From assembly GCA_937863505.1 (NCBI GenBank), contig CALMGC010000240.1:1-33440 (forward strand): a stretch of DNA of 33,440 nt, read 5' to 3'. Under the pieces are notes generated by a model, which did no database searches, was not told the DNA's origin, and saw only the letters and a program-made list of their open reading frames with translations. The first letter of the stretch is position 1; every line of letters starts with the position of its first letter. The DNA comes from an uncultured Sphingomonadales bacterium. GTDB taxonomy: Bacteria; Pseudomonadota; Alphaproteobacteria; Sphingomonadales; Sphingomonadaceae. Both the position numbers and the translations under genes were made by a program. Shown here piece by piece: positions 2,872-32,398 of the stretch.

Positions 2872-2932
2872 TCGCCAGGTGATTGCGCGAGGACTTGGTT
2901 TACGGCAAGTAACCATCTCATCGGAGCAGCAG

Positions 2933-3811: not shown

Positions 3812-3859
3812 TCAGCGATTGGTGTGGGTTGGGCATTTCGCATCAACAGGGGAAGGGCG

Positions 3860-4921
3860 ATGAAGCGGTTTCAGACATTGGATGGATTACGCGGCTTCGC
3901 GGCGCTGTTCGTGATGCTGTGGCACATCCAGCAGGTGATCGCCCCCAACCTGCCGATCATGCCGTCGTCCTATCTCGCGGTTGACCTGTTCTTCCTGATC
4001 AGCGGCTTCGTTATAGCGAACGGTTATACCCGCAAGCTGGATGGAGGCATGACGGTATTCAAGTTTCTGCGGCTACGGGTCGTTCGTCTGTTTCCGCTCT
4101 ACTACCTTGGTTGCGCGGCGGGCCTTGCTTATCCGATGATCGACGTGCTCAAAGACGGGGAGCTGTGGCATCTCAAGGATGCGGCACTGGCGATTCCCGC
4201 CGCACTGTTCCTGCTTCCGGACGTGTTTCATGCCGGTTCGTTCCCGCTGAACCCGCCCGGCTGGTCGCTCTTCTATGAAATGGTGATCAACATCCTGTTC
4301 GCCGCCGGACTGTTTCGGCTTGGCGTCCGACGGACATTGCAGACCGTCTTCGTCCTCGGCGTACTGCTGATTCCGGCCGCGGTGTATCACGACAGGATTA
4401 TTACGTTCGCGAACGTCACGATGCTGCTGAGCACGGCGCGAACCGCGTTCTCGTTTCTGCTCGGCGTCGCGCTGTATCAACTCTGGCGTAACGATCGTCT
4501 TCCATTCGTGCGCGTTCCCGCCTTCGCGCTCATTCCGATCATGATGGTGTGCATGATGCAGTCGCCATCGGGCGTCGTTTCGGCGGCTCTGGTCATGACG
4601 GCGATCGGGATCGCCTTTCCGGTGATCCTGATCGCGGCCGTGCAGAACGAGCCAACGGGTCGCCTCCGCACGGTCTTCAATCGGTTGGGCGAGTTGTCCT
4701 ATCCGATCTACGCCATCCATTACCCGGTCATGCTGCTCGGCGCGCGCCTGCTGAAACCGCTCGGCCTCGATCCGACCCTGATCGGCTTGGCGCTGGCGCT
4801 GGGCATCGTCGGCCTGGCCTGGCTCGCATTGACCTATGTCGACCAGCCGCTGCGCGACGCACTGGCCCCGCGGGTCCATGTGCGTCGCGCGTCGGTGGCG
4901 ACCGAGGCCCCCGCGTTCTGA
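3860..4921 (+). CDS. Acyltransferase family 3 (OafA/ExoZ-like membrane acyltransferase)
   Basis: RFQTLDGLRGFAALFVMLWHIQ...YLAVDLFFLISGFVIANGY...RVVRLFPLYYLG; many TM segments; typical AT3 N-terminus. Confidence 0.92.
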   Translation: MKRFQTLDGLRGFAALFVMLWHIQQVIAPNLPIMPSSYLAVDLFFLISGFVIANGYTRKLDGGMTVFKFLRLRVVRLFPLYYLGCAAGLAYPMIDVLKDGELWHLKDAALAIPAALFLLPDVFHAGSFPLNPPGWSLFYEMVINILFAAGLFRLGVRRTLQTVFVLGVLLIPAAVYHDRIITFANVTMLLSTARTAFSFLLGVALYQLWRNDRLPFVRVPAFALIPIMMVCMMQSPSGVVSAALVMTAIGIAFPVILIAAVQNEPTGRLRTVFNRLGELSYPIYAIHYPVMLLGARLLKPLGLDPTLIGLALALGIVGLAWLALTYVDQPLRDALAPRVHVRRASVATEAPAF

Positions 4922-10169: not shown

Positions 10170-12344
10170 ATGGATGCGATCACAACTTCGGTCGAGGCGG
10201 AAGACGCGCCGGTCAGGCGGGGCTTTCCGCCGCTGCTGCCCGATCCAGCGATGCTGTGGGCGATGTTTCGCCGCCGCTTGTGGCTGTTCGCGCTGATATG
10301 GGCGCTGGTCGCCGTCGGCATCGCCGCGCGCACCTTTCACCAGGTGCCACAATATTCCGCGACCTCCACTTTGGTGATCACGCCCGCGCGCAGCGACGTG
10401 GTGGATGGCGTCCGCGGCGTGACCGCTCCGATCCAGCCCGACAGCGCCGCGATCGAAACCGAGGTGCAGATCCTGAGTTCCCCGGCGCTGGCCGGACGGG
10501 TCGCCGATGCGCTTCATCTCGAGCGCTACCCGATGTTCGGCGGGCAGGCTGGTGCCATGCTGCAGGATGAGGGAGCAAGTACGGAGCCCGGCACGCACCC
10601 GCTCGCGCGCGCGCTCGCGTCGCACATGACGATCCAGCGCGTGGGATTGTCGTTCGTCATCGCGATCTCGGCGACCACGCCCGACCGGCACCTATCGGCT
10701 GCCATCGCCAACGAGTATGTGAAGGAATATATCGACCAGCAGTCGAGCAGCAAGAACGCCGCAACCCATGCGATCAGCGGCGAGCTGCAGGGCAAGCTGG
10801 ACGACATGGAGAAAAAGGTCGTCGCCGCCGATTCGGCGGTGCAGGCCTACAAAATCCAGCACAATTTGATGAGCACCGAAGGCTCGACCATGGCCGAGCA
10901 GCAGGTGTCGACCCTGTCCGGCCAGATCGCGTCCGCGCAGGCCGACCTCGCCGACAAGACCGCCCGGCTCGCGACGGCGCGCCAACAGCTCGCCCATGGC
11001 GGCGGCGGTCAGGACGTGGGCGCGACGCTTGCATCAGGCACCGTGTCCGCGCTGCGCACGCGGGAGGCGGACACCACCCAGCGGCTGGCCGACCTCACCA
11101 CCCGCTATGGCGAGCTCCACCCGGACGTGCAGAAGACGCGCAAGGAGCTGGCGGACATCCGCTCACAGATCCAGCATGAGATCGACCGGATCATCTCCAA
11201 CCTGTCGGCCGAGCGTAACGCGTCGGCCTCGCGGCTCGCCTCGCTGCAGGGCAGCCAGGCGGGGGCCAAGGGTTCGCTGACCAGCAACAATAGCGCCATG
11301 GTCGGGTTGCAGGAACTGGAGCGCAAGGCGGAAGCCGCGCGCAGTGTTTATCTCGCGTTCCTCAACCGCTCCAAGGAGACGGTGTCGCAGGAAGGTATCG
11401 CCCAGCCCGACGCCAAGGTCGATTCGCTGTCGCGCGTGCCGGTGCTGCCGTCCTCGCCCAATATCCCGCTCGCCATCCTGTTCGCGCTGGTGGGTGGCCC
11501 GGTGGCGGGAATGTTCGGGATCGCGCTCGCGGAATATCTCGACGGCAAGGTGCGCACCAAGCAGGATGTCGAGCACAAGCTGCGCGTCCGTTACGTCGGC
11601 GGCGTGCCCGAGCTCAAGTCGACGCTCGGCAGGCTTCGCAATAACCAGAGCCCGCAGGATTACCTGGTCGACCATCCCATGTCCGCCTTCGCCGAGGCGT
11701 TCCGTGGTCTCAGAGCCGCGTTGATGCAGCGCGGGCGACAGATGCCCTCGGTAATCGCGGTCACTTCGGCGCTGCCTCGCGAAGGTAAGTCGACCACCTC
11801 CATCTGTCTGGCGCGCACGATGGTGTCTTCGGGATCGAGGACGGTGTTGGTCGATTGCGACATCCGCCGCCGCTCGGTCAGCGAAGCGTTGCTGCCCCGC
11901 GACTGGTCGGGACTGCTCGACTATCTGGCGGGGACCAAGACGCTTGAACAGGCGGTGTTCAAGGATCCCAAATCTGATCTGCGCATCCTCGGCTCGACGG
12001 TGGCGCCCGACTATGCGCGCGACCTGTTCGCGGACCGCGGGGTGGAGAAGGTGTTGGACGAGTTGCGCGAGCATTTCGAGGTGTCGGTGCTCGACACCGC
12101 GCCGGTGCTGGGCATCGCCGAGACCCGCGCGATCGCCGCCGCCGCCGACTCGACGCTGGTGCTCGCGCGCTGGCGCAGGACGTCGATGAAGGCGGCGGAC
12201 GCAGCCGTCGAAATGCTGCTCGGCGCGAACGCGCACCTGCGCGGGCTGGCGCTGACCATGGTCGACATCCGCCGCTACGCCAGCACCGGCTATCAGGACG
12301 TCTATAGCTATCACAAGAAGTTCAAGGGTTATTATCAGAACTGA
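10170..12344 (+). CDS. Polysaccharide co-polymerase fused to BY-type tyrosine autokinase (Wzc/ExoP/GumC-like)
   Basis: N-terminal Wzz-like TM region, long coiled coil, second TM, Walker A-like LPREGKSTTS, Walker A' VLVDCDIRR, C-terminal Tyr cluster YASTGYQDVYSYHKKFKGYYQN. Confidence 0.92.
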   Translation: MDAITTSVEAEDAPVRRGFPPLLPDPAMLWAMFRRRLWLFALIWALVAVGIAARTFHQVPQYSATSTLVITPARSDVVDGVRGVTAPIQPDSAAIETEVQILSSPALAGRVADALHLERYPMFGGQAGAMLQDEGASTEPGTHPLARALASHMTIQRVGLSFVIAISATTPDRHLSAAIANEYVKEYIDQQSSSKNAATHAISGELQGKLDDMEKKVVAADSAVQAYKIQHNLMSTEGSTMAEQQVSTLSGQIASAQADLADKTARLATARQQLAHGGGGQDVGATLASGTVSALRTREADTTQRLADLTTRYGELHPDVQKTRKELADIRSQIQHEIDRIISNLSAERNASASRLASLQGSQAGAKGSLTSNNSAMVGLQELERKAEAARSVYLAFLNRSKETVSQEGIAQPDAKVDSLSRVPVLPSSPNIPLAILFALVGGPVAGMFGIALAEYLDGKVRTKQDVEHKLRVRYVGGVPELKSTLGRLRNNQSPQDYLVDHPMSAFAEAFRGLRAALMQRGRQMPSVIAVTSALPREGKSTTSICLARTMVSSGSRTVLVDCDIRRRSVSEALLPRDWSGLLDYLAGTKTLEQAVFKDPKSDLRILGSTVAPDYARDLFADRGVEKVLDELREHFEVSVLDTAPVLGIAETRAIAAAADSTLVLARWRRTSMKAADAAVEMLLGANAHLRGLALTMVDIRRYASTGYQDVYSYHKKFKGYYQN

Positions 12345-12548: not shown

Positions 12549-14297
12549 TTGGATCACCCCATCGGAGGCGCGTCGCTGCGCGCCGGGCTGGCGGCGTGCC
12601 GCTCGCATTTCATCAACGCCGCGCTGTTCAGCGGACTGATCAATCTTCTCTACCTCGCCCCGTCGATCTACATGCTGCAGGTCTATGACCGCGCAGTGCC
12701 GACGCGGGGCGCGACGACATTGCTCGCGCTGACGCTCATCTACCTGTTCGCGATCGCGACGATGGGCGCGTTCGACCTGGTCCGCGCGCGGGTGCTGATA
12801 CGCGCCAGCGCCCGGCTCGACCGGCTGCTCGCCCCGCCGATCGTCGCCGCACTAATCCGCACCTCCGTCGCGCAGCCGCGCAGCAGCGCCGCGCTGCGCG
12901 AGTTCGACCAACTTCGCCAGACGCTGACCGGCGCGGGGGTGCTGGCGCTGTTCGACCTGCCCTGGGCACCGATCTACCTCCTGGTCTGCTTCGTCATCCA
13001 CCCGCTGCTGGGCGCGATGGCGATCGCGGCGATGGGCGCGACCGCCGGGCTCGCCTGGGCGAACGAGCGCGCGAGCAGCCGCTCGCTCAAGCTCGCCAAC
13101 GCCGCCGCGACGCATGGCTACACCTCGCTCGAGGGCACGCTCGGCGCGGCGGGCGTGGTGAAGGCGCTCGGCATGGGCCCCGCGCTGCTCGCGCGCCACC
13201 GGGCGGAGCGGGCGGAAAGCCTCGGCTTTCAGGCCACCGCCAGCGCGTCCAACGCCACCTTCGTGTCCGCGACCAAGGCGATGCGGATCGCGCTCCAGTC
13301 GCTCGCGCTCGGGCTCGGCGCATGGCTGGCGATGGACGGGCGCATCTCGGGCGGTGCGATTTTCGCCGCCTCCTTGCTGCTCTCGCGCGCGCTCGCCCCG
13401 ATCGAACAGATCACCGGCGCGTCCAAGGCGCTGGTGCTGGCGCTGCCCGCCTACCGCACGATCCACGCGCTGCTCGTCGAGGCGGGCGACACGCCGGAGC
13501 CGGTTCGGCTGCCCGCGCCCACGGGGCGGCTGCAGGCGGAAGGCTTGACGGTCGCGATCGCCGACACCGATCGCCGCGCGCTCGCGGGCGTGTCGTTCAA
13601 ACTCGCTGAAGGCCGCGTGCTCGGCGTCGTCGGCCCGAGCGGCGCGGGCAAGTCGACGCTGGCGCGCGCGCTGGTCGGCGCGGTGGCGGCGGAGGCGGGC
13701 GTCGTCCGGCTCGACGGCGCCAGCCTCGCCGACTGGCCGGAGGACCAGCTCGGCGCAGCGATCGGCTATCTGCCGCAAGACCCGACGCTGCTGCGCGGCA
13801 CCGTGCGCGAGAATATCTGCCGCTTCCGGACCGGCGACCGCGCCGCGATCGACGCGGAGGTGGTGCGCGCCGCGCAGGCGTGCGGGGCGCACGAGCTGAT
13901 CCTGTCGCTCCCCAAGGCGTATGACACCGTTCTCGGCCAGCGCGGCGCGGGGCTGTCGGCGGGGCAGGCGCAGCGGATCGCTCTCGCCCGCGCGCTCTAT
14001 GGCGGCCCCGCGCTGCTCGTGCTCGACGAGCCCAATGCGCATCTCGACGCGGACGGCGAGGCGCAGCTGTTCGCCACCCTGCAGGCGGTCAAGGCGAACG
14101 GTGCCACCGTGGTCGTGATTGCGCACCGCACGGGCGTGCTCCGGGTGGTGGACGAGTTGCTGGTGCTGCGCGACGGTCGCATCGCGCTTCACGGCGAGCG
14201 CGACGAGGTGATGCGCAAGCTCGCCGAGCCCCCCGCGCCTGTCGCGCCCGCCGCCCCAATTGCCCCCGCCGCCGCGCCCCGCGCGCTTGCCGCCTGA
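12549..14297 (+). CDS. Type I secretion system permease/ATPase (PrtD/HlyB family; AtrD-like in sphingan loci)
   Basis: SGLINLLYLAPSIYMLQVYDRAVPTRGATTLLALT (PrtD-type N-terminus); Walker A GPSGAGKST, signature LSAGQAQR, Walker B LLVLDEPNAHLD, H-loop IAHR. TTG start. Confidence 0.93.
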   Translation: MDHPIGGASLRAGLAACRSHFINAALFSGLINLLYLAPSIYMLQVYDRAVPTRGATTLLALTLIYLFAIATMGAFDLVRARVLIRASARLDRLLAPPIVAALIRTSVAQPRSSAALREFDQLRQTLTGAGVLALFDLPWAPIYLLVCFVIHPLLGAMAIAAMGATAGLAWANERASSRSLKLANAAATHGYTSLEGTLGAAGVVKALGMGPALLARHRAERAESLGFQATASASNATFVSATKAMRIALQSLALGLGAWLAMDGRISGGAIFAASLLLSRALAPIEQITGASKALVLALPAYRTIHALLVEAGDTPEPVRLPAPTGRLQAEGLTVAIADTDRRALAGVSFKLAEGRVLGVVGPSGAGKSTLARALVGAVAAEAGVVRLDGASLADWPEDQLGAAIGYLPQDPTLLRGTVRENICRFRTGDRAAIDAEVVRAAQACGAHELILSLPKAYDTVLGQRGAGLSAGQAQRIALARALYGGPALLVLDEPNAHLDADGEAQLFATLQAVKANGATVVVIAHRTGVLRVVDELLVLRDGRIALHGERDEVMRKLAEPPAPVAPAAPIAPAAAPRALAA

Positions 14298-17060: not shown

Positions 17061-18530
17061 ATGTCCGTCCGCCGATCGCTCGCCTGGGCCTACTCCGGGC
17101 AGATCACCTCGTTCGCCATCCAGTTCGCGACATCGGTCATCATCGCGCGCATCCTGTCCCCGCACGAGATGGGCATTTACGCCATCGCGATGGCGGTCCA
17201 GGGCATCATCTGGATCTTCACCAATTTCGGCATCGGCGCGTATATCGTGCGCGAGGTCGACCTGAAGCGCGAGACGCTCGACACCGCGTTCACGATCAAC
17301 GCCATCCTGTCCTTCATTCTCGCCGGGCTGCTGCTGGGGGCGAGCTTCGGCGGCAAGCTGTTGTTCGGCGACCCCGCCGCCGCCAACGTGCTCAGGGTCA
17401 GCGCGGTGAGCGTGCTGATCCCCATCTTCGCCTTCCGCGCCAGCGTGATGATGCAGCGCGAGATGCGCTTCAAGGAAGGCTCGATGATCGGCACCGCGAC
17501 CGGCATCATCGGGTCGCTGTCGACGATCAGCTTCGCGCTGCTGGGCGCGAGCTATATGAGCCCGGCCTATGGCGCGCTGGTCGGCAACGTCGTCAGCACG
17601 CTGGCGGTGGTGGTGCTGATCCGCGAGCATTTCAGCACGCGCATTTCCTTCGCCGAGTGGCGGCGGCTAAGCGTGTTCGGAATGCAGATGGTGTCGGTGG
17701 GCGGCGTTTCCGATGCCGCCGCAAGGCTTTCCGACGTGGTGCTGGGCCGGATGCTGGGCGTGACCGCGCTGGGCTTCTACTCGCGCGCCTCGAACCTGTC
17801 GGGGCTGATCTACACCCAGGTCTATGGCACCGCCACCCGGGTCGCCTTTGTTCAGCTATCGAAGAGTTTCCGTGAGACGGGTGAGCTGCGCGCGATGTTC
17901 CTGCGCTCGTTCAGCATGATCACCGCGTGCCTGTGGCCCTTCCTGATCGGGCTGGCGGTGCTGTCGCGCCCCGCGATCCACATCCTGTACGGCGGGAAAT
18001 GGGTCCCCGCCGCCGTGCCGCTGTCGCTGCTGATGGTGGCGCAGTTCTTCACGCTCTGCTTCGGGATGAACTGGGAATTGTTCGTGCTGCGCGAGGAGAC
18101 CGCGCGGCAGACGAAATACGAGGTGATCCGCTCGCTGCTCGGCCTCGCCGTGTTCTCGATCGGATGTCTGATCAGCATCGAAGCGGCCGCGGTCGGGCGC
18201 GTCGTCGATTCTTTCATCGGCTTTCTGTTCTATTACCCGCACGTCCGCAGGCTGGCGAGGACGGAGCCGCACGAGATCCCGCTCATCTACCGCAGCAGCG
18301 CGCTGCTCACGGCGGCGGCGGTGCTCCCCGCGCTGGTGCTGATGGTCGTCTATCGTTGGTCGCCGACCACCCCGCCATTGCTGGTGATGGCGAGCGTGGG
18401 CGGGGGTGTCGCGCTGTGGTTGCTGACCGCGATCCGCCTGCGCCATCCGCTGCGCGATGAACTGCTTCGCCTAGTGACACCGGTCATGCCGCGGCTCGGG
18501 GCGGGAATCGAGCGATTGTCGCCGCGTTGA
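17061..18530 (+). CDS. Lipopolysaccharide/polysaccharide flippase, Wzx-like (MOP superfamily)
   Basis: MSVRRSLAWAYSGQITSFAIQFATSVIIARILSPHEMGIYAIAMAVQGI...LLGRMLG-type segment VVLGRMLGVTALGFYSRASNLSGLIYTQVYG; ~12-14 TM segments. Confidence 0.9.
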   Translation: MSVRRSLAWAYSGQITSFAIQFATSVIIARILSPHEMGIYAIAMAVQGIIWIFTNFGIGAYIVREVDLKRETLDTAFTINAILSFILAGLLLGASFGGKLLFGDPAAANVLRVSAVSVLIPIFAFRASVMMQREMRFKEGSMIGTATGIIGSLSTISFALLGASYMSPAYGALVGNVVSTLAVVVLIREHFSTRISFAEWRRLSVFGMQMVSVGGVSDAAARLSDVVLGRMLGVTALGFYSRASNLSGLIYTQVYGTATRVAFVQLSKSFRETGELRAMFLRSFSMITACLWPFLIGLAVLSRPAIHILYGGKWVPAAVPLSLLMVAQFFTLCFGMNWELFVLREETARQTKYEVIRSLLGLAVFSIGCLISIEAAAVGRVVDSFIGFLFYYPHVRRLARTEPHEIPLIYRSSALLTAAAVLPALVLMVVYRWSPTTPPLLVMASVGGGVALWLLTAIRLRHPLRDELLRLVTPVMPRLGAGIERLSPR

Positions 18531-18608
18531 AGTAAGCGTCGGCCCGGAGTGCAGCTTACGGTCGGGCTGCTGACTTGGCCGGCAACGCGGGATCGAAAGG
18601 ATGCCTCC

Positions 18609-19658
18609 ATGACAAGACGCTACCTTTACGTTCTCGGTGGGTTCGCTGGGGACGACCCGCTCAAGCCCGCGCCGAACGATCCGGTGTTCGAGTACCGCCA
18701 TTTCGCCCGGACCACCGGTGCCGACATCGTGAGCCTGTCCACTCTGGGCGTGCGAGGCGAGGGGATCCAGACCCGGTTGACGTCGAGATCGCTCGTCCTT
18801 CGAATGCGGCTCGGCCTTTTGGTGGCGCGTCGCGCCGCGCGGTATGACGCGATCGTCGCATCGGGAGAAGACATCGGCGTCTTCGTCGCCGCTGCCTTGA
18901 GGGCGACGCGGCGGCGCACCCCGCTCGTGATCGTGACCCACGGTCCGCAGTTCGAGTCGTCCAAGTTCAGGCTGATGCTGTCAATGGTCAAATCCATGCC
19001 GACCGTGACCTACGCATGCCTGTCGCGCTCACTCGCGGACTGGATCGTCACGCATCGCGGCATCGATCCACGGCGCTGCCCGGCAAGCGGGTATGGTGTC
19101 GACACCGACTATTACCACACCGAGCCCGGGCCGACCGATGCGATGATCGCCAGCGCCGGCACGTCGCATCGCGATTATGACACACTGATCCGCGCGGTCA
19201 CCGGCACCGGTCTTGACACCCGCATCGCCGCCCACAGCGTCTGGGTCGGCCCCGGTGACGCGATACGGGTGCCCCTTCCCGAGCATGTCGAGGTCCGCTC
19301 CTATGGCAGCTACGCTAACCTCCGCGAACTGTACCGGCGCGCGCGCGTCGTCGTGGTGCCGACGCACGACGTTCCGTTCGCCGCCGGGTTCGCGGTGATT
19401 GCGGAGGCAATGGCCACTGGCACCCCGGTTATCGCCACGCGGGGGCGTGTGACGTCGGACTTCATCGTGCCGGGCGTGACCGGGCTGTTGGTGCCGCCCG
19501 GCAACGCCGACGCGCTGCGGGCGGCGATCCTGTCGCTGATCGACGACCCGGACCACGCCGCCGCGATGGGCGCCGCCGCCGCCGCGCGCATGCGGGAGCT
19601 ATACTCGCTCGATCGCTATGTCGCGCGGCTGGAGGAAGCCGTCGCCGTTCATGGCTAG
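18609..19658 (+). CDS. Glycosyltransferase family 4
   Basis: ATG at 18609; FAAGFAVIAEAMATGTPVIATRGRVTSDFIVPGVTGLLVPPGNADALRAAILSLIDDP is a classic GT4 C-terminal motif. Confidence 0.9.
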   Translation: MTRRYLYVLGGFAGDDPLKPAPNDPVFEYRHFARTTGADIVSLSTLGVRGEGIQTRLTSRSLVLRMRLGLLVARRAARYDAIVASGEDIGVFVAAALRATRRRTPLVIVTHGPQFESSKFRLMLSMVKSMPTVTYACLSRSLADWIVTHRGIDPRRCPASGYGVDTDYYHTEPGPTDAMIASAGTSHRDYDTLIRAVTGTGLDTRIAAHSVWVGPGDAIRVPLPEHVEVRSYGSYANLRELYRRARVVVVPTHDVPFAAGFAVIAEAMATGTPVIATRGRVTSDFIVPGVTGLLVPPGNADALRAAILSLIDDPDHAAAMGAAAAARMRELYSLDRYVARLEEAVAVHG

Positions 19659-19726: not shown

Positions 19727-20995
19727 TCACCGCGTGGTTATCCCCAACAACGTCGCGGTTGCGCGCTCGATCCGGTCGGCGAAAGCCGCCTTGGAGAAGG
19801 TACGCTCGAACAGCGCACGACCGGCCTCTCCGATCGACGGCCAATCCCCCCGCCGCGCGAGCGCCTCCTCCAACGCTTGCGCGATCGACGCGGCGGTCGG
19901 CTCCTCGGCTATAAAACCGTCCGCTCCATGCCGGAGATAGGCGGCGGTGCCCGTGGTCCGCGTACACAACAGCACTCGCCCACAGCCCAGCGCGTCCACG
20001 GTGACCATCGGCAGCGTGTCGTCGCGCGATGGCATCAGCACCGCGTCGCACGCCAGCATCGCCTCGCGCACCGGCCCCGCATCAAGCGCGGGACCCAGCG
20101 CGATTTCCGGCATCGTCGCCGCGCGGCGGACGAGCGCGTCGTGGAAATCCTCGAACAGGATACGCCCGTGCATCACCAGCCGCACCCGCGCCCGCGACCC
20201 GGCCGGCAGCAGCGCCAGCGCCTCCGCGGCGAGGTCCTGCCCCTTGCGCGGCTCATATGATCCGAAAATCCCGATCCGCACCGGTCGGTCGGCCGGAACG
20301 CCGGGGGTGCCGCCCATCCCGATCGGGTCGAGCCCGTAAGGCATCACCTCGACATCGGGCCGCAACGGGCGAAGAATGGCCGCAGGCAACTCGCTGCCCG
20401 CCCAAACCATCGTCGGTCGCGCCAGCAGCGCCTTCAGCTTGGGATCGCGGTCGAGCATGGCGCTGAGCAGCGAGATCTCGTGGATGAACCATATCAGGGG
20501 CACGCGCGGGGCCAATCGCGCGACGGCGGCCTCGGTCACGATGGTGTTGCACAGCGCGAAGTCGATCAGCGGCGCGGCCGCGGCAAGCAGCCGGGAGGAG
20601 GCCTTTTCCACATCCGAATCGAGGATCACCGTCGCTCCGGCTTCGAACAGCCGTTGGCGGAACGGGCCATCCTTGGGCGACAGCACGGTGACTTGGTGTC
20701 CGGCGGCGAGCAGCAACAACGCGATTTCGTACACCAGCCGCGGCGCTCCGCTCGCGCTCAGGTCGTTGGTGACCAGCAGCGCCCGCTTGCCGTCGCCGCC
20801 ATCTGCCCCGCCATGGACATGGGTGAAGGGCCTGGCTTTCTCGATTCGCCGAAGCAGCCGGTCCACGCGCCCGGGCAGACGCAGTCGCCCACTCCCGACG
20901 ATGCGTCCGGACAGCGCCGCACCCGCGCGGCGGAGCCGACGCCCTGGCGACCGGTCGAGCGATCGGGCGACCTCATCCAGCGTCCGTCGCCGCAT
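19727..20995 (-). CDS. Glycosyltransferase family 4
   Basis: RALLVTNDLSASGAPRLVYEIALLLLAAGHQVTVLSPKDG...GIFGSYEPRKGQDLAAEALALLP...LMPSRDDTLPMVTVDALGCGRVLLCTRTTGTAAYLRHGADGFI. Confidence 0.9.
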   Translation of the reverse strand: MRRRTLDEVARSLDRSPGRRLRRAGAALSGRIVGSGRLRLPGRVDRLLRRIEKARPFTHVHGGADGGDGKRALLVTNDLSASGAPRLVYEIALLLLAAGHQVTVLSPKDGPFRQRLFEAGATVILDSDVEKASSRLLAAAAPLIDFALCNTIVTEAAVARLAPRVPLIWFIHEISLLSAMLDRDPKLKALLARPTMVWAGSELPAAILRPLRPDVEVMPYGLDPIGMGGTPGVPADRPVRIGIFGSYEPRKGQDLAAEALALLPAGSRARVRLVMHGRILFEDFHDALVRRAATMPEIALGPALDAGPVREAMLACDAVLMPSRDDTLPMVTVDALGCGRVLLCTRTTGTAAYLRHGADGFIAEEPTAASIAQALEEALARRGDWPSIGEAGRALFERTFSKAAFADRIERATATLLGITTR

Positions 20996-22073
20996 GGCGC
21001 ACTCCCTTCCTGTTCGAGCCGGCGCCTATTACCCGATCGAGCGCCAGCGCCATGATCTTTCTGGCGCGACGGTCGTAGAACGAGTCGATCGCGACCGCCA
21101 GCATGAGGACGGCCGCCGTGAAGCCGCCGGCCAACGCCCAACCGGGCGCGATCGCCAGGCTCGCCATGGCGCGATTGGTCAGCAGCAGCAGCGGATTGTG
21201 GATGACGTAGAGCGCGTAGCTGGCGTCGCCCAACATCTTGCCCAGCCGTGGTCGCCGCTCCCGCGCGGACGCGCCGAGATAGATCAGCGCCGGGAAGAGC
21301 AAGCCGACACAGAAGAGTTCGTAACCCGAGGTGAGGCGCGCCGGCACCCGGAGAACGAAGCTGAGTATCAGGACGCCGAGAACCGCGACCGCCGGGACGG
21401 CCGGCGGTCGCCAGCGCCTGTGTAGACGTCGCACGCCTACCCCGGCAAAGAACGAGAAGGTGACACGCGGGAAGCCACCCGCGATGTCGGCCCACAGCCA
21501 ACCCACATTGATGTTGCCGACCTTCGCCTCGACCACGATCAGGCCGATGAAGGACGCCGCGACCAACAGGCTCAGCCCAACGGTACGCAATCGGGACCCG
21601 AACAGTGCGAACAGCACATTCGCCACATACACTTCCAGGAACAGCGACCAGGCGGGCGAGTCCACGGGGAAGAGGTCGATATGCGTGTGGAAGGTCGGCG
21701 ACGGCAGGAGCACCGCGTTGAATGCGATCACCTTGGCCGTCGAGCCCAGCGAGGCGCCGAGCCGCAGGTCGAGCAGGAGCCCGACCGCGCCGATCAGCAG
21801 GCCAAGCCAGTAGATCGGCATCAGCCGGACGAACCGGAGCCGCATGAACGCGGTGAAGCGTAGCCCGCCGGCGAACGCCCCGTCATAGCGGTAGCTCAGC
21901 ACGAAGCCGCTGAGGGCGAAGAACATGTCGACCGCGAGATATCCGAACCGGACGTTGCATTCGCTGATCGCCATGCAGGCCGGACCGTACAGCCCCTGGA
22001 TGTGGAACAGGAGCACGGTCAGCGCGGCCATGCCGCGCATGGCGTCAAGGGTCGCGAACCGTTCCTTGGTCAT
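20973..22073 (-). CDS. Acyltransferase family 3 (OafA-like)
   Basis: MTKERFATLDAMRGMAALTVLLFHIQGLYG...GYLAVDMFFALSGFVLSYRY...RFVRLMPIYWLG; start at 22073 chosen from the domain boundary. Overlaps the downstream GT by 23 nt. Confidence 0.9.
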   Translation of the reverse strand: MTKERFATLDAMRGMAALTVLLFHIQGLYGPACMAISECNVRFGYLAVDMFFALSGFVLSYRYDGAFAGGLRFTAFMRLRFVRLMPIYWLGLLIGAVGLLLDLRLGASLGSTAKVIAFNAVLLPSPTFHTHIDLFPVDSPAWSLFLEVYVANVLFALFGSRLRTVGLSLLVAASFIGLIVVEAKVGNINVGWLWADIAGGFPRVTFSFFAGVGVRRLHRRWRPPAVPAVAVLGVLILSFVLRVPARLTSGYELFCVGLLFPALIYLGASARERRPRLGKMLGDASYALYVIHNPLLLLTNRAMASLAIAPGWALAGGFTAAVLMLAVAIDSFYDRRARKIMALALDRVIGAGSNRKGVRHAATDAG

Positions 22074-22242
22074 GCCCGCCCCAATCGCCTGCGAATCGCC
22101 TGTGCGACGCTCCTTAGGCCAAGCGCCGGTTTCACCCCAGCCACCTTGGAAACGAACCTTTCTGGATATTTTCCGCTGTCCTACAAGCACCCGTTCGGAT
22201 CATAGCCTGCGACGCCCGAGTCGGGCGATGAGGAGGACGAGC

Positions 22243-22512
22243 ATGATCCTGGACAGTTTCAGCAACCGCACGGACAGCGTTTCCGCCCCGGCGACCGCCG
22301 CGGTGCCGATCACGCCGAGCGACTCGGCCCCGCTCGGCACGCTGCCCAAGGCGATCTATGTCGGCACCGGCGGCGACATCGTCATGCGCGGCAAGGCCGA
22401 TACGGCGGACCAGGTCTGGCGCAACCTGCCCAACGGCGCGCTGGTCCCGTTCCGCGCCGCCTATGTCCGCGCCGCCGGCACGACCGCCGCCGACCTGCTG
22501 GCGCTGTACTGA
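22243..22512 (+). CDS. Spike base protein-like, RCAP_rcc01079 (GTA head-spike base) family
   Basis: 89 aa MILDSFSNRTDSVSAPATAAVPITPSDSAPLGTLPKAIYVGTGGDIVMRGKADTADQVWRNLPNGALVPFRAAYVRAAGTTAADLLALY; matches the remembered family pattern (TPSDSxxL...ALYVGxxG...LPxGxxLPxRxxxVxAxGTTAxxIxAL). AGGAGGA SD upstream of ATG. Confidence 0.75.
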   Translation: MILDSFSNRTDSVSAPATAAVPITPSDSAPLGTLPKAIYVGTGGDIVMRGKADTADQVWRNLPNGALVPFRAAYVRAAGTTAADLLALY

Positions 22513-23990
22513 TGCCGACGCTCGACCTGTCGATCGGCCGCGCGGGCACGGCGCTGGGCGGTGGCGCGCCCGCGCCCGTCCGGCCCGCGGCGATGTTGCC
22601 CGCGCTGACCAGCCCGGGCGCGCGCTACCATGCCGTCTATTCAAACGAGCGGCTGCTGGGCGGATATAGCGGCCCGCTCGCCTATGCCGCGCTGGGCGAG
22701 AGCGCGGCGGGCGGCGTCGACCTTGGCGCGGGGCGCGAGCGGATCACGGCGGCGGACCTGCCCGCGCCGGTGACGCCGCTGTACGGCTGGTACGACCAGA
22801 GCGGCGGCGGGCGGCACCTCGTTCAGGACGTGCTTGCGCATCGGCCCAGACTGCGCGCCGATGTGACGGTGGGCGGTCGCCTGGCCACCGCCTTCGCGGG
22901 CCTGGCGAACGACCCGGCCTACGCCAGCCTTTCCGGCCCGCAGTCCCTCATCGCCGGAGCGCGCTGCGAGGCGCTGGTGATCCATCCGACCACCTCGCTC
23001 CAGAACGCGGTGTGGAGCGAGCACGCGGACGCAGCCGGAGCGGTGTGGCGCGACCTGTTCGTGTCGCTGGCCGCCGACGGCGCGCTTGGCGTCGCGCAGC
23101 AGACCACGTCCGTACACATCCCGTCGGTGCCGCAGGTGCTGCTGCTCACCGAAGGGCCGAACGGCACGACGCTGTTCCGCGACGGCGTCCCGGTCGCGTT
23201 GCGGGCCGGCGACTCGTCGGCGCTCGCCCGCCTGACGCTGGGCGCCTCCGCGCTCGGCGCGCAGTTCAACGCCAATTTCCGCCTCGCCGCCTATCTCGCG
23301 ATCGAGGGCGCGATGAACGCGGCCGACGCGGCGGCGATCACCGCGGCGCTCCAGTCCCGCTTCGCGATCCGCCCGGCGCACGACGTCAACCTAGTCCACA
23401 TCGGCGACAGCATCGTCGAGGGCGTGGCGGCGAGCGACACGCTCGCGCTCGGCGCGCAGTTGCTGCCGTTGCTCGCGCGATCGACACGCTACTGGAACCT
23501 GGGCATCGCCGGGCGGACGCAGGCGCAATGTTTCGCGACCCGGACGGCGCGCGAGGGCGCACTGTTCGAGCCGGGCAAGGTCAACCTCGCGCTGATCGAC
23601 GCGGGGATCAACGACCTCGGCGCGGGCGCGCGCGGCGCGGACCTGTGCGCCAACACCACCCGACCTTACCTTGCGGCGCTGAGGGCGATGGGGTTCCGCG
23701 TCGGGCTCGCCACGCTGCTCCCGCAGACCAGCGGCCGTTACCCGACGGGCGACGCCACGATCGAGCAGGAGCGGCTGGCCTACAACGCCGCCGCTCGGGG
23801 TGATTCGGCCGGTGCCGACTTTCTGGTCGACCGAGCCGCGAGCCCGGTGATGGGGCGCTATCCCGCGAGTTGCGCGGACGCGGCCTTGTATAGCGCGACC
23901 GTGGGCGGCGCGGGTCTGCACCCGACGACGCTCGGCTATGCCCTGCTTGCCCCGATCTACGCCGACGCGATCAACGCCGCCATCACCTGA
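22512..23990 (+). CDS. Fibre-like protein: N-terminal ConA/arabinofuranosidase-like region plus C-terminal SGNH/GDSL hydrolase domain
   Basis: TGATG overlap with the spike-base gene; RYHAVYSNERLLGGYSGPL...LYGWYDQSGGGRHLVQDVLAHRPRL (WYDQSG-type lectin/arabinofuranosidase-like); SGNH blocks VHIGDSIVEGV, LGIAGRTQ, DAGINDLG, GLHPTTLGYALLAPIYADAI. Confidence 0.82.
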   Translation: MPTLDLSIGRAGTALGGGAPAPVRPAAMLPALTSPGARYHAVYSNERLLGGYSGPLAYAALGESAAGGVDLGAGRERITAADLPAPVTPLYGWYDQSGGGRHLVQDVLAHRPRLRADVTVGGRLATAFAGLANDPAYASLSGPQSLIAGARCEALVIHPTTSLQNAVWSEHADAAGAVWRDLFVSLAADGALGVAQQTTSVHIPSVPQVLLLTEGPNGTTLFRDGVPVALRAGDSSALARLTLGASALGAQFNANFRLAAYLAIEGAMNAADAAAITAALQSRFAIRPAHDVNLVHIGDSIVEGVAASDTLALGAQLLPLLARSTRYWNLGIAGRTQAQCFATRTAREGALFEPGKVNLALIDAGINDLGAGARGADLCANTTRPYLAALRAMGFRVGLATLLPQTSGRYPTGDATIEQERLAYNAAARGDSAGADFLVDRAASPVMGRYPASCADAALYSATVGGAGLHPTTLGYALLAPIYADAINAAIT

Positions 23991-24108: not shown

Positions 24109-25206
24109 GTGACGCCCGCCGTCACCGGTGGTTCGCGCGCGCCGCGCGCCAAGTTCATCGGGCTCGACGGGCTACGCGGTTTCGCGGCGGTCCTCGTGGT
24201 CGTGTTGCACGTCTGCAATATGCTGTCGGTATGGCGACCGTCCGCCGCCTATCTGGCGGTTGACCTGTTCTTCATGCTGAGCGGCTTCGTGGTGCCCTAT
24301 GCCTATGAAGGGAAGCTGCGGGGCGGACTCGGCTTTTGGCGTTTCGTCGAGATCAGGGCGATCCGGCTCTACCCGCTATATATTCTAGGCGTCGGCATCG
24401 GACTGGGCCTGTATGCCGTGCAGGCCTTGTCAGCCCGTGGCCTCGGGCCATTGCATGATCCCGCGCGGTGGACGCCTTGGGCGATGCTAATGCTGCCCAT
24501 TCCGTCCTGGGTCCCGAGCAAATCCTTTCCGCTCAACCCGCCGGCGTGGAGCCTGTTTCTCGAGATGGTCGTCAACGTCGCCTACGCGCTCGCGTTGCCG
24601 TGGCTGCGCACCCGCGTCGTCGCGGCGGTCGCGGCGACGGCGGCGGTGATGCTCGCGGTGGCGGACCGGCGTTTCGGGACCGGCGATTTCGGCACCGGCG
24701 GGGTGCAGATGATCTGGGGCCTGTCGCGCGTCACCTGCCCGTTCGCCATCGGGGTGCTGCTGCACCGCCTGTGGATGGAGGGACGACTGCCGCCCGCGCC
24801 GGTTCCGGTCCTGCTCCCCTGTGTCCTGTTCGCATTGCTGCTGCTTTTGCCCGGCGAGGGGCGCGTCGCCGCCGCGATCGGGCCGCTGCTGGTGGTCGGC
24901 GGGTTGACGATCATCGTGTCGCTTGCGATCCGGAGCAGCCCCGCAGGACCGACGGTCGGCATCTTCGAGGCGCTTGGGCTGCTGTCCTACCCGCTTTACG
25001 CGCTCCACCTGCCGATCCTGAACCTGTGCCGGGGTGTGCTGCCGATGCTCGGCGTCGGCCTGCAAGCGGCGACGCTGACGGGCGTGCCGGTCGCGTTCAT
25101 CGTCGCCTGGCTGTCGATCCGGCTCTATGACGAGCCGGTGCGAGCGCGGCTGACGCATTGGGCGGCGCTGCGCCGCGCCGAGGTCGAGCGGGCACCCGCG
25201 CTTTGA
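24109..25206 (+). CDS. Acyltransferase family 3 (OafA-like)
   Basis: KFIGLDGLRGFAAVLVVVLHVCN...YLAVDLFFMLSGFVVPYAYE...AIRLYPLYILG. GTG 24109 taken as the start; the listed ORF begins inside the upstream gene. Confidence 0.9.
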   Translation: MTPAVTGGSRAPRAKFIGLDGLRGFAAVLVVVLHVCNMLSVWRPSAAYLAVDLFFMLSGFVVPYAYEGKLRGGLGFWRFVEIRAIRLYPLYILGVGIGLGLYAVQALSARGLGPLHDPARWTPWAMLMLPIPSWVPSKSFPLNPPAWSLFLEMVVNVAYALALPWLRTRVVAAVAATAAVMLAVADRRFGTGDFGTGGVQMIWGLSRVTCPFAIGVLLHRLWMEGRLPPAPVPVLLPCVLFALLLLLPGEGRVAAAIGPLLVVGGLTIIVSLAIRSSPAGPTVGIFEALGLLSYPLYALHLPILNLCRGVLPMLGVGLQAATLTGVPVAFIVAWLSIRLYDEPVRARLTHWAALRRAEVERAPAL

Positions 25207-26303
25207 CGGCCGCTCCCGCCGTGCGCCACAGCTTCGACACGCTGGACCTGCTCCGGGGTGTGGCCGCCTTCTGCGTGCTGTTGTGGCATTTCGTGCCGAT
25301 CGGAGGGAAAAGCTGGTGGTCGGCCTATCTCTCGGTCGACCTGTTCTTCGTGCTGAGCGGCGTGGTCATCGCGCACGCGTACGAAGAGCGCCTGCGCAGC
25401 GGCTGGCGACCGTGGCGCTTCTTCTTGACCCGCGTGATCCGGTTATGGCCGCTGTACCTGCTCGGCTCCGCGATCGGCGCCGGGTCGGTCGCGGCCGAAA
25501 TCCTCCTGAACGGCGGTACGCATCCGTGGCAGTTCAGGCCGCTCGCGGCCGATACGCTGCGCGCCGCCTTTCTCTGGCCCCTGCTCCATCCGCCCACCGC
25601 GCCGATCTTTCCACTCAACCGCAACGCCTGGTCGCTGTTCGCGGAGCTGGTGGTCAACATCGGATACGGCTTCGGCGGGTACCGGTTGGGCAACCGCGCG
25701 CTCGCGGGAGTCGCGCTGATGGGAGCGCTGGTGGTCGGCTGGGGCGCGTTCCACTTCGCGAACTGGGACTCCGCGCTCAATCTTGGCGGTCTGGTCGTGC
25801 ATATCGGTGTCGGGTTGGGCCGGGCGCTATATTCGTTTCCCGTGGGCGTCCTGATCTATCGGTGGTGGCGAGCGGGCGCGCTGCCTCGCATCCGCGTGCA
25901 TCCGCTCCTGCCGGCACTGGCCTTTGTTCTGCTGCTGCTGGTCACGCCCGGTGAAGGACCGCTGGCGCCAGCCGCGTCGTGCCTCGCGGTGTGGCTGGCG
26001 ACGCCGTTGCTGGTGGTGGTCGCGGTGCAGTGCGAGGCGCGCGGCGTGATGCGCTCGGCGGCGCGACTCGGAGGCACGCTGTCCTACCCGGTTTATGTCG
26101 TTCAGGACGGTTGCTACCTGTTCGCGGCATTGCTTGTCGTCCGGGGCGTGACCTCCCCGCTGGCCGCTTATGGATTGGCCGCCGCGACGGTGCTGGCGCT
26201 TGCGCCCCTTGCGGACCGGTTTTTCGACCGGCCGGTCCGGCGAGGGTTGACGCGTTTCGCCCGCATGGACAATCGCTTGCCGGCGCTTGCGCCGACCCTC
26301 TGA
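25203..26303 (+). CDS. Acyltransferase family 3 (OafA-like)
   Basis: FDTLDLLRGVAAFCVLLWHFVPI...YLSVDLFFVLSGVVIAHAYEERL...VIRLWPLYLLG. Probable TTG start at 25203 overlapping the upstream TGA. Confidence 0.88.
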   Translation: MTAAPAVRHSFDTLDLLRGVAAFCVLLWHFVPIGGKSWWSAYLSVDLFFVLSGVVIAHAYEERLRSGWRPWRFFLTRVIRLWPLYLLGSAIGAGSVAAEILLNGGTHPWQFRPLAADTLRAAFLWPLLHPPTAPIFPLNRNAWSLFAELVVNIGYGFGGYRLGNRALAGVALMGALVVGWGAFHFANWDSALNLGGLVVHIGVGLGRALYSFPVGVLIYRWWRAGALPRIRVHPLLPALAFVLLLLVTPGEGPLAPAASCLAVWLATPLLVVVAVQCEARGVMRSAARLGGTLSYPVYVVQDGCYLFAALLVVRGVTSPLAAYGLAAATVLALAPLADRFFDRPVRRGLTRFARMDNRLPALAPTL

Positions 26304-26491: not shown

Positions 26492-27148
26492 ATGAAGAAG
26501 CTGTTAGCCGCCCTGGCATTCTCGGCCGCCTCGATCCTGGCGGTTCCGGCGGGTGCCGTGACGTTCACCGTCGGTGACGCGAACACCGGCCCGACCACCA
26601 CGACGACGCTCACCCGTTTCGCGCCCGGCGCGCGGGTGTTCACGTTTGAGGACGGCACGTCGCCCTTCACGGGCGGCACGGTCGTCAGCGGCGCGAGCCC
26701 CGGTCAGTATGCGGTGCCGCAGGGCGACACGTCGAGGAACTTCCTCGCGGTTGGTCCGGGACCGAGCATCAGCAGCCCGGCGACGCTGGCTCTGTCGGGC
26801 GTGAGCCAGATCGCGTTCTACTGGGGCTCGATCGACTCGTTCAACACCATCACGTTCAACGGCCTCGGCCAGTCGTTCAACGGCCTGGCCTTCGACGGCG
26901 CGGACGGTGACACGTTCCGCAACGGGCGTGAGGTGGTCTTTAACCTTACCGGTGCCGAGGCAGCGGCGCTGACGGGCATCACGCTCAGCAGCAGCACCAA
27001 CGCGTTCGAGCTTGACGACGTGATCGTCGGCAACGCGGTGCCGGAGCCGGCGACCTATGGCATCATGTCGCTCGGTCTCGGTTTGATCGGCGCGGCGCTT
27101 CGCCGTCGTCGCTCCATCACCGGTCTGACGGGCCTCAACTTCGCCTGA
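26492..27148 (+). CDS. PEP-CTERM sorting domain-containing secreted protein
   Basis: Signal peptide MKKLLAALAFSAASILAVPAGA; C-terminal VPEPATYGIMSLGLGLIGAALRRRRS (PEP motif, TM, Arg cluster). AAGGGG SD. Confidence 0.9.
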   Translation: MKKLLAALAFSAASILAVPAGAVTFTVGDANTGPTTTTTLTRFAPGARVFTFEDGTSPFTGGTVVSGASPGQYAVPQGDTSRNFLAVGPGPSISSPATLALSGVSQIAFYWGSIDSFNTITFNGLGQSFNGLAFDGADGDTFRNGREVVFNLTGAEAAALTGITLSSSTNAFELDDVIVGNAVPEPATYGIMSLGLGLIGAALRRRRSITGLTGLNFA

Positions 27149-27575: not shown

Positions 27576-27990
27576 TGCCTCTCCTATTATTCTAAACGCT
27601 CGGTCGTCGACTTTGTGCCCTGACGGACGCAATTCCGGCCTAGTAGCATATGGTCGCGATCGACCGTACCGCTTGTCTTATTTTCGTCACCCTTGAACCA
27701 AGATCGCGCGAACGGGTCAAGCTTTTCGTGGAGCGCGGCGTCACCAAGGTCCTGATGAGGTGCTTGTCGGCGGCTCGGGCGCAGGCCTTGCTTGCGACGA
27801 TCTCGTGCGTCAAATCGGGTCAGCCCGCCGGATGTCGTTCCTTGCAGCCTTTCGCCGATTAGCTTAGGTGATTGAAATCAGCCTATAGGGGTCCGAACCG
27901 GCCTCGCCGTGACCAGTTCCTGACAACCGCACCATGGGCGAACCCGGCCGACTTGTCGGCGGGCGCGGATAAGTTTTGGGGGAAGTGCGT

Positions 27991-28608
27991 ATGAGCGCTG
28001 TGCGCTGGTTGTGGGCTCGCCCGTGGTTCCGTTTCGGTGCGGCACCTGCCCTGCTGATGCTGCTCGTGACCGTGGAAAGCAGCAACAAGGCGAGGAGCGC
28101 AATCCGCGACGCTCTCCGCGACCCGTACGCAATGCTCAACGGCCGGTCGCCGGGCGGCCGTGACCCCGGCGCTCTGTTCCAGACCAAGCTCGCCTACTCG
28201 CATACGCGTCCAGCCGGCACCAAGCCGCATCAACGGGTGCTGCCGACCGAGCGTGTGCGACCGCCGCTGGGCGGCGGAGGCGCGCCGGGGTTCGGAGACA
28301 CGCCGCTGGGCATACCCGTGTCGACATTAGGCCCGCTGGGCGGTTCGCTGCCCAATTTCGGAAGCGGGGGAAATCCCTCTTTGATCGGCGACACGGCTCC
28401 GCCCTTCGTCGGTGGCGGCGCAACGCCGGCGACCTCCACGGCACCGGTCCCGGCGACGAGCCCTGCCGCCGCGGTTCCCGAGCCCGACACCTGGGGATTA
28501 CTCTTGCTCGGGGTCGGAGCGATCGGTTTCGGTTCACGCCGGCGTCGGGCGGCCCGGCGTCGTACAAAGCGGGACACCGGGTCGGGAACGGCCAGCACCA
28601 ACTCCTGA
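27991..28608 (+). CDS. PEP-CTERM sorting domain-containing protein, Pro/Gly-rich
   Basis: N-terminal hydrophobic segment; C-terminal VPEPDTWGLLLLGVGAIGFGSRRRR followed by a 19-aa tail; GGGGGAA SD upstream of ATG 27991. Confidence 0.85.
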   Translation: MSAVRWLWARPWFRFGAAPALLMLLVTVESSNKARSAIRDALRDPYAMLNGRSPGGRDPGALFQTKLAYSHTRPAGTKPHQRVLPTERVRPPLGGGGAPGFGDTPLGIPVSTLGPLGGSLPNFGSGGNPSLIGDTAPPFVGGGATPATSTAPVPATSPAAAVPEPDTWGLLLLGVGAIGFGSRRRRAARRRTKRDTGSGTASTNS

Positions 28609-30740: not shown

Positions 30741-31478
30741 TTAAATGTCGGTGCCGAGCAGCTTGCGGCCGGGCGGGCCCAGCGACGCGATCAGGCTGCG
30801 GTTGAACTGCTCAATCTGGACCAGCGCCGCCGTCCTGTCATCGCCCAGCGTCGAAACGCGGACCAGCACGCCGTCGGGCAAAACCCCGCGCAGATTGGCA
30901 AGCGTCACCGCTATCCGCTCCTGCCCGAGCGTCGCCGGAAAGCGATCGCCGATGCGCACCCAATAGAATACCTGCTCAATCCGATCGCTCCGCTCCGCCG
31001 TGAGGAACGTGGCGACCTCGCGCTGGCCACGATGGAGCGCGACGGGTATGCGATCGATACCCCGGATCGTGTACCCCGACGATGGATAGCAAACCTCGGG
31101 CAGATGCGCCTGCAAGGTATAGTCCTGCGCGCTGCCATAGGCGATCAGCAGCATGATCCCCGGAAGGCCATCGCCGCCATAGACACGGGTGAGGACCTGA
31201 TCATAGATCTGGTCGGTCAACTCGTCCTGCGGCGGAACCACCAGGCCGCTGGCGGTGACGAATTGCCAGCGCCCGATCGTCGTCGGGATCGCGCGGTCGA
31301 GCGTACCGGGGGCGATCCTCTCGACCTGTCGGCGCGGTTTCAGCGCCACCGTCGCGGCGGTGGCGGCGAGCATCGCGCCCCCGATCATCAGTTGGCGCCG
31401 GTCCGGCCGCGCCAGGGTCGCCGGCATCGTCGCCGCGCCGGGCGAAGTCAGCCGGCCCGCGTCGCTCATGTCGGTCAC
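30741..31478 (-). CDS. epsI: Exosortase-associated EpsI family protein
   Basis: RRQLMIGGAMLAATAATVALKPR...IPTTIGRWQ...LTRVYGGDGLPGIMLLIAYGSAQDYTLQAHLPEVCYPSSGYTI (H-x-P-E-x-C-Y motif). GTG at 31478 overlaps the xrt stop; ATG at 31469 is the alternative. Confidence 0.88.
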   Translation of the reverse strand: MTDMSDAGRLTSPGAATMPATLARPDRRQLMIGGAMLAATAATVALKPRRQVERIAPGTLDRAIPTTIGRWQFVTASGLVVPPQDELTDQIYDQVLTRVYGGDGLPGIMLLIAYGSAQDYTLQAHLPEVCYPSSGYTIRGIDRIPVALHRGQREVATFLTAERSDRIEQVFYWVRIGDRFPATLGQERIAVTLANLRGVLPDGVLVRVSTLGDDRTAALVQIEQFNRSLIASLGPPGRKLLGTDI

Positions 31479-32398
31479 GCGGCGGCTCTCCGGCCGAGTC
31501 GACGGCGCAGCGGGGCCAGCGCGGCGTCGCACGCGATCAGCAGCAGCAGCGCGCACGCGAACATGGTGAAGCCCGCCGCTTCGTGCAGGATGCCCTGCGC
31601 GACCTCGTTGCCCAGATATTTGGTCACCAGCAGCAGGATGATGACGCGCAGCAGATTGGCCCCGATGGCGATGGGGATCACCAGCAGCGAGAGCAGCGCG
31701 GCATAACGCCAGTCCGCCTGATGCCGAAGATAGATGTAGAACAGCCCGATCGCCATCAGGCTGACGAGCGAGTTCATCCCCGAACAGGCGGCGGCGACCA
31801 GCAGTTCATATTGGTCGATGTACAGCGTCGTGCCGCTCGACGCGACCTGGAACCCCGCCACCGAGAGCACGTCCACCGCGGCGGTCGATATCCACAGCTT
31901 CAGTGTGCGGGTCAGCGCGAGGATGATCTCGTAGGGCGGCGGGACCAGAAACAGGAGATAGAATAGCGGAAACCACAGCCGCCGCAGCACCGCCGCTCCA
32001 ACGTACAGGTAGAAGGCGGTGACCAACACGACATAGACCGCCGCCCAGCGGAGCCAGACGATGCCGATCATCGCCGCGAGCACATAACCGATCAGCGCCA
32101 CGCCGATCAGCGGCCCCGCCCAGCGGGCGGCTCCCGGCCGGCGTGCGGATAGCGCGCCCGGCACCTCGCGCAGCAAGAGCCACAGGCCGGTGGTGAGGAT
32201 GATCGGCCCGTGCGCGCCCTGCTCGGTCGACCAGACGATCTGGCCGAGCTGCACCAGCGCTGGGATCGCGAGCACCGCCGCCGCGACCAGCAGGAACCAG
32301 TAACGGCGCGCGAACCCGGCCCAATCGATCCTGGGATAGGCGGCTCCGGCCGGTCGGACGGTTGCGCCCTCGCTGATCACGCTACTGACGGTCGCCAT
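31475..32398 (-). CDS. xrt: Exosortase (EpsH/Xrt family, possibly XrtV-type)
   Basis: Multi-TM; ELLVAAACSGMNSLVSLMAIGL (catalytic Cys), IGANLLRVIILLL (Arg), QGILHEAAGFTMFACALLLL (His). Adjacent EpsI and EpsD. Confidence 0.9.
   Translation of the reverse strand: MATVSSVISEGATVRPAGAAYPRIDWAGFARRYWFLLVAAAVLAIPALVQLGQIVWSTEQGAHGPIILTTGLWLLLREVPGALSARRPGAARWAGPLIGVALIGYVLAAMIGIVWLRWAAVYVVLVTAFYLYVGAAVLRRLWFPLFYLLFLVPPPYEIILALTRTLKLWISTAAVDVLSVAGFQVASSGTTLYIDQYELLVAAACSGMNSLVSLMAIGLFYIYLRHQADWRYAALLSLLVIPIAIGANLLRVIILLLVTKYLGNEVAQGILHEAAGFTMFACALLLLIACDAALAPLRRRLGRRAAA

Follow-up and report, generated by a model that had tools for sequence, protein, structure and literature searches.

A probable gene transfer agent head-spike pair encoded among exopolysaccharide genes in Sphingomonadaceae

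Why would genes for a particle head spike lie among the genes that build a polysaccharide coat? This question is raised by a contig of an uncultured Sphingomonadales bacterium (CALMGC010000240.1, assembly GCA_937863505.1), here called the window, a stretch of 33,440 nucleotides in which a small protein and a larger one are encoded in tandem inside an exopolysaccharide (EPS) locus. The gene transfer agent (GTA) of Rhodobacter capsulatus, RcGTA, carries eleven head spikes, each consisting of a base pentamer and one fibre held by its N-terminal IALGLGLGL (PMC7296036, PMC10218006). These spikes bind the capsule and their genes adjoin co-regulated capsule genes (PMC10218006, PMC7296036). How GTAs choose their recipients and why cells keep them remains an open question. 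We consider, with a probability of roughly three in four, that the window's pair makes up the head spike of the cell's own RcGTA-like GTA, base plus receptor-binding fibre, relocated to an EPS receptor-synthesis locus.

The first-pass annotation, made from the letters alone, had placed the 89-aa protein (22243-22512, plus strand) in the Rcc01079 (GhsA) family and proposed profile and structure comparisons as a check; both similarities were found. The protein scored 99.8 bits (E 7.7e-29) against the NCBIfam model NF048002, 'spike base protein, RCAP_Rcc01079 family', well above the curated cut-off of 28 bits, and matched the RcGTA head-spike base 6tb9 in phmmer (E 3.2e-9). Its AlphaFold model, built on 64 sequences, reached a pLDDT of 95 and showed the jellyroll fold of 6tb9, which was also the best PDB match (E 5.3e-6, TM 0.81/0.85); the phage Carin1 spike base ranked next. 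The ORFs of the base and the 492-aa fibre were present at the positions claimed for them and overlap by TGATG, and this overlap is kept in relatives. Both genes are under purifying selection, with pN/pS values of 0.07-0.41 in comparisons that include genomes without a GTA.

The second protein (22512-23990, plus strand) is a candidate head-spike fibre by virtue of its position, which is that of GhsB, and of the TGATG coupling. It has an anchor-like N-terminus (MPTLDLSIG), a carbohydrate-active-like middle with the motif WYDQSG and a C-terminal SGNH/GDSL hydrolase domain. The hydrolase domain had been predicted and was recovered by Pfam (PF13472, 1.1e-12, and PF00657; residues 294-480), while the proposal that the WYDQSG region is lectin-like fared less well. 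Pfam gave no family match for this region in the window's fibre. The only full-length relative that we found (L046), which likewise follows a spike base within an EPS locus, has in the aligned segment a PF09206 match (arabinofuranosidase-B-catalytic-like, E 4.6e-10), so a carbohydrate-active or concanavalin-like domain is a likelier reading of the region than a specific lectin. In the alignment of the SGNH blocks (A4), S300, G334, N367 and H470 are invariant, and Ala467 occupies the position of the expected Asp of DxxH, three residues before His470. Since the Asp is replaced although Ser, Gly, Asn and His are kept, hydrolysis by this domain is plausible but not shown.

The N-terminus of the fibre has alternating hydrophobic residues (TLDLSIG) and is weaker than the GFGFG-type anchors that are clear in many relatives; its anchor is degenerate, with LDLSI instead of LGLGLG. 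A loose anchor pattern was present in 11 of 32 EPS-locus fibres of named genomes and in 6% of other proteins. The structure model of the fibre, made from three distant sequences, had a pLDDT of 31 and was not used. A search of a phage database with the fibre gave no match, and no relatives were found in the viral contigs searched. Orthology of the fibre to GhsB is an inference, and so, without binding data, is its binding or modification (deacetylation) of the neighbouring EPS.

Both flanks of the pair consist of EPS genes. They encode a Wzz/AAA kinase co-polymerase (10170-12344, plus; PF02706, PF13614), a Wzx-type flippase (17061-18530, plus; PF13440, 7.5e-52), several glycosyltransferases, among them two of group 1 (18549-19658, plus; PF00534, 5e-19; and 19727-20866, minus; PF00534), four Acyl_transf_3 proteins, two GH16 proteins, an ABC/HlyD export set, an exosortase and PEP-CTERM proteins. 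Two of the four Acyl_transf_3 O-acyltransferase genes flank the spike pair directly, one divergent (20973-22073, minus; PF01757, 8e-24) and one downstream (24109-25206, plus; PF01757, 2e-28), and a third follows (25221-26303, plus; PF01757, 5.6e-15). The stretch 836-4921 (plus) of this locus encodes glycosyltransferases, a GH16 hydrolase and one more Acyl_transf_3. The starts of the three listed acyltransferases, of the minus-strand glycosyltransferase and of the genes at 836-4921 are those of the ORF caller. The first-pass annotation had seen no other capsid, tail or phage gene here, and among the genes that we scanned with Pfam there was likewise no further phage structural gene. It had also named an outcome that would refute it, a prophage remnant unrelated to the EPS genes in relatives. 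We rejected this candidate, as there were no flanking phage genes among those scanned and relatives share the EPS location. The PEP-CTERM proteins, two in number, and the exosortase, of the EpsH type, are those at 26492-27148, 27976-28605 and 31475-32398. A GH16 domain lies inside a 935-aa protein (4923-7730, minus), in addition to the shorter GH16 at 2933-3811. An ARAGORN call of tRNA-Pro (13382-13461, minus), antisense within the ABC transporter ORF 12549-14297, is probably a false positive.

The pair was followed through 301 genomes of the family, of which 57 had a spike base at E <= 0.001 (51 above the cut-off); 20-kb contexts were inspected for most spike loci and grouped by gene order. 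An alignment of 19 base sequences was too diverse to serve for the locus scan. In 12 genomes base and fibre lie between the capsid gene and gp6 of the GTA cluster, and in 29 genomes, the window included, they lie in a Wzx/Wzy-type EPS locus, which bears out the synteny that the annotation had suggested checking. The remaining spike genomes have the base in prophages or other places. Pfam families of cluster representatives in the EPS home were Wzz, Poly_export, GT2, Wzy, dTDP-rhamnose genes, GT1 and UDP-glucose dehydrogenase. A scan of named genomes, a set that overlaps with the 301, gave 80 loci, with 26 in GTA clusters, 35 in EPS loci and 19 unassigned, and the EPS location recurs in many genera. 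At least two core EPS families were present at 33 of the 46 named spike loci outside GTA clusters, compared with 1 of 20 stretches of 20 kb drawn at random from such genomes (p = 3e-7), so the enrichment of EPS genes near spikes is more than chance.

The GTA-cluster pair (capsid, spike base, fibre, gp6) belongs to the same base family, with which the window's base groups, and has the TGATG overlap; it differs from the window's pair in having no promoter of its own and no EPS linkage. Esterase domains occur in fibres of both homes, GDSL in the window's fibre, L046 and L081 and SASA in L094 and L082. Sphingobium (e.g. SYK-6) has a third home, beside dapB and nth, followed where examined by holin and phage lysozyme genes and without EPS genes. 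Eight such Sphingobium loci (L055, L090, L197, L200, L203, L207, L217 and L231) have base and fibre by dapB/nth, and in L055 the holin and lysozyme that follow make it a separate GTA lysis-and-spike locus. Outside the family, spikes of two other alphaproteobacterial families (L342 and L344) adjoin Wzz genes, and L341 lies within a GTA cluster.

A GTA cluster elsewhere in the genome had been proposed as a further check, and parts of one were found, although the assembly is fragmented (324 contigs, 88% complete). The DUF2460 protein (gp12) of an RcGTA-like GTA is on contig C46, and contig C323 holds portal, protease, capsid, gp6 and gp8-gp11 in order. On C323 gp6 stands directly behind the capsid gene, with no spike and no room for a spike pair, and the whole assembly contains only one spike base. 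PF13547 (GTA_TIM) was uninformative as a GTA marker, being absent from essentially the whole family, and we used DUF2460 and capsid instead. A spike is absent from the GTA cluster in each of the 24 EPS-locus genomes in which a GTA is clear, the window's own genome included, and in most of them capsid and gp6 are adjacent; a second spike base was not found in the 12 GTA-cluster genomes. The GTA-cluster home and the EPS-locus home are mutually exclusive.

Presence of a GTA was associated with the spike: 49 of 57 spike genomes had one, compared with 151 of 244 spike-less genomes (p 2.5e-4), and for EPS-locus genomes the count was 24 of 29 against 144 of 244 spike-less ones (p 0.009), phylogeny being ignored in both tests. 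In the partly overlapping named set, a GTA was present in 30 of 36 EPS-locus genomes. Intact spikes without a convincing GTA were seen in 5 of the 29 EPS-locus genomes (about 17%; G039, G077, G246 and G271, and G234, which lacks the capsid) and in 6 of the 36 named ones. These genomes pose the greatest difficulty for our reading. Another use of the spike, or its persistence after GTA loss, is therefore possible, and the constraint on pairs in GTA-less genomes may predate the loss.

Judging from their upstream regions, EPS-locus spikes have a promoter of their own. An imperfect inverted repeat, AACC-TTTCT-GGAT (22155-22167, plus), lies 88 nt upstream of the spike-base start in the window, and from the counts of WACC-N5-GGWW we take it as a candidate operator common to GTA promoters, its function being inferred. 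Downstream of it are CTGTCCTACA (22176-22185, plus), an instance of CT[T/G]TCCTACA, a promoter element conserved ahead of spikes outside the GTA cluster, and CATAG (22201-22205, plus), a possible -10 region inferred from the CATA-like sequence often present at a similar distance past the element. The WACC-N5-GGWW repeat was present in 16 of 58 upstream regions of EPS-locus spikes (about a quarter, versus 1.8% in shuffles) and in 16 of 40 GTA-cluster upstream regions (versus 5% in shuffles), there mostly about 10 bases before TTGACA. It was present at none of 36 spikes inside GTA operons. Three genomes (G027, G171 and G267) have the repeat at both the EPS-locus spike and the GTA-cluster promoter, and in G196, of the same genus as the window, the GTA promoter reads CGAACC-N5-GGATA.

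The inverted repeat was also upstream of all four DUF6456 genes read, DUF6456 presumably corresponding to part of GafA or to GafZ, and CTTTCCTACA was found upstream of a GTA_holin_3TM gene (PF11351). The single DUF6456 gene of the window's own genome (C98:11065-11445) has CTGTCCTACA a short way upstream, at C98:10967-10976, an arrangement that is the same in four of five congeners. We rejected CT[T/G]TCCTACA as a GTA-specific site, because it also stands upstream of alaS, accC, rpsA, typA and other housekeeping genes (named by eye from their N-termini); only the neighbouring inverted repeat is common to GTA promoters. Genome-wide, the element gave 122 matches against 20 for reversed controls in 8 genomes and is a common sphingomonad promoter element (L345-L374 and others). 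In R. capsulatus the head-spike genes are controlled by GafA and CtrA (PMC9638019). For Caulobacter, the GafY element as published includes ACTATG (PMC11150451), and the WACC-N5-GGWW repeat may thus serve a factor other than GafY. Regulation of the spikes by GafA/GafYZ-like factors is inferred, as we have no regulator-binding or expression data.

The tree of the bases, resting on 89 columns, is weakly resolved. In it the window's base falls outside the main EPS-locus group and clusters with bases from GTA clusters and with one from a prophage of S. oleivorans, which suggests, with modest support and without excluding a prophage source, more than one move into EPS loci. The closest base in sequence is that of the S. 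oleivorans prophage (65% identity), which is accompanied by tail, endolysin and spanin genes, and GTA-cluster bases come next. One cluster of related fibres (c30) is found in both homes. In IMG/VR, 75 of the 80 contigs with a close spike base are GTA clusters (L238-L317), which means that this database widely bins GTA clusters as viruses.

The nearest base being a prophage one, and spike bases occurring in a few prophages and phages (S. oleivorans, RcapNL, Carin1), the pair could be a prophage receptor-binding module without any link to a GTA, captured by chance or carried by unrelated phages. We hold this to be very improbable, since no other phage gene was found nearby among those scanned, the close IMG/VR matches are nearly all GTA clusters and the EPS location is recurrent in many genera; the exclusive homes and the common operator also speak against it. 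A spike that no longer serves the GTA deserves somewhat more weight: as a domesticated protein, secreted or displayed on the surface, it would bind or trim the cell's own polysaccharide. The EPS location, the enzyme domains in the fibre and the pairs that stay intact and constrained where no GTA is detectable would all fit such a role. It remains improbable given the significant association with GTA presence, the exclusivity with GTA-cluster spikes and the operator common to GTA promoters, and the base itself is built for capsid pentamers (PMC7296036). Our preferred reading, a relocated head spike of the cell's own GTA, draws on observed features, namely family, fold, coupling, exclusive homes, GTA presence, a common operator sequence and purifying selection.

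If the pair is a relocated GTA head spike, its genes would be transcribed in the EPS locus from their own promoter and not from behind the capsid gene. Because this promoter has the inverted repeat of GTA-cluster promoters, the spike would be made upon GTA induction. The base would then be seated on capsid pentamers, like that of RcGTA, and would hold the N-terminal hydrophobic peptide of the fibre. On sister cells, the fibre would bind the acylated exopolysaccharide that the surrounding genes produce. The SGNH domain could perhaps trim acyl groups before the tail reaches the cell surface. Particle assembly, regulation, binding or deacetylation of the neighbouring EPS and co-inheritance are all inferred at present, without binding, expression or particle data.

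With the spike among coat-building genes, the particle's key and the coat that it probably grips may be inherited together, and genetic linkage would let key and receptor be exchanged together as well. Taken furthest, the EPS locus would be a lock-and-key cassette for kin-directed gene transfer, in which a surface polysaccharide is encoded together with the GTA spike for its recognition and trimming; this extension is tentative, and we would not put it at even odds. A linkage of receptor binding and receptor synthesis had been suggested by the first-pass annotation. The exclusivity with GTA-cluster spikes and the operator common to GTA promoters lend it support, and binding of the neighbouring EPS is still inference. 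The pair might also belong to the GTA and have come to its place passively, in a hot spot for variable genes with no selection for linking receptor and key, an alternative that concerns only the linkage. EPS loci are known variable islands, and the Sphingobium home lacks EPS genes. Passive placement nevertheless seems rather unlikely to us, as the arrangement recurs in different genera and in two alphaproteobacterial families besides this one, and the spikes of R. capsulatus also adjoin capsule genes (PMC10218006).

GhsA/GhsB of R. capsulatus (Rcc01079/Rcc01080), beside the capsule genes rcc01081-01086, resemble the window's pair in the homologous base, the same fold and the base-fibre order, and likewise lie outside the main GTA cluster, by polysaccharide genes, with the GTA elsewhere in the genome. 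In contrast to R. capsulatus, the Sphingomonadaceae pair is in full Wzx/Wzy-type EPS loci, the window's fibre is a 492-aa protein with an SGNH domain where GhsB has 325 aa, the sphingomonad relatives alternate between GTA-cluster and EPS-locus homes, and an operator sequence is described. The spike base of phage Carin1 (PDB 8cjz_h) and the 'tail fiber protein' of Rhodobacter phage RcapNL share the fold or the family by weak sequence match, but they are encoded in phage genomes. The RcGTA tailspike TspA (Rcc02623) is likewise an ectopic GTA protein acting on polysaccharide, with a promoter bound by GafA (PMC13420450); it is, however, a beta-helix tailspike limited to Rhodobacterales and unrelated to the base-fibre pair. 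Our literature search for Sphingomonadales found no report of spike genes beside polysaccharide genes. The breadth and recurrence of the arrangement are new, as is the way in which its two homes, GTA cluster and EPS locus, alternate and exclude each other; so are the operator common to GTA promoters and the enzyme-bearing fibres.

The repeated placement of spikes in receptor-synthesis loci, with an operator common to the GTA cluster, makes kin-directed transfer a hypothesis that can be tested in culturable sphingomonads; Sphingobium fluviale and Croceicoccus gelatinilyticus are examples that have a GTA and an EPS-locus spike. If the cassette reading were true, exchange of the locus would change the recipient type and the particle specificity in one step, and GTA transfer would remain matched to cells sharing that coat. 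Inspection of the main cluster alone can overlook GTA parts, and the base family together with the operator offers a sequence handle for distributed GTA loci. In GTA clusters without an NF048002 match (L121-L128, L134 and L135) the slot between capsid and gp6 often holds other genes. That of L122 has a 911-aa protein, a 120-aa protein and a 93-aa Gp77-type fibre-tail adaptor (PF23148), possibly an alternative head-fibre module. The proteins of cluster c43, found at weak spike-base matches (L069, L073, L074 and L075) with the promoter element CT[T/G]TCCTACA, are probably divergent spike bases.
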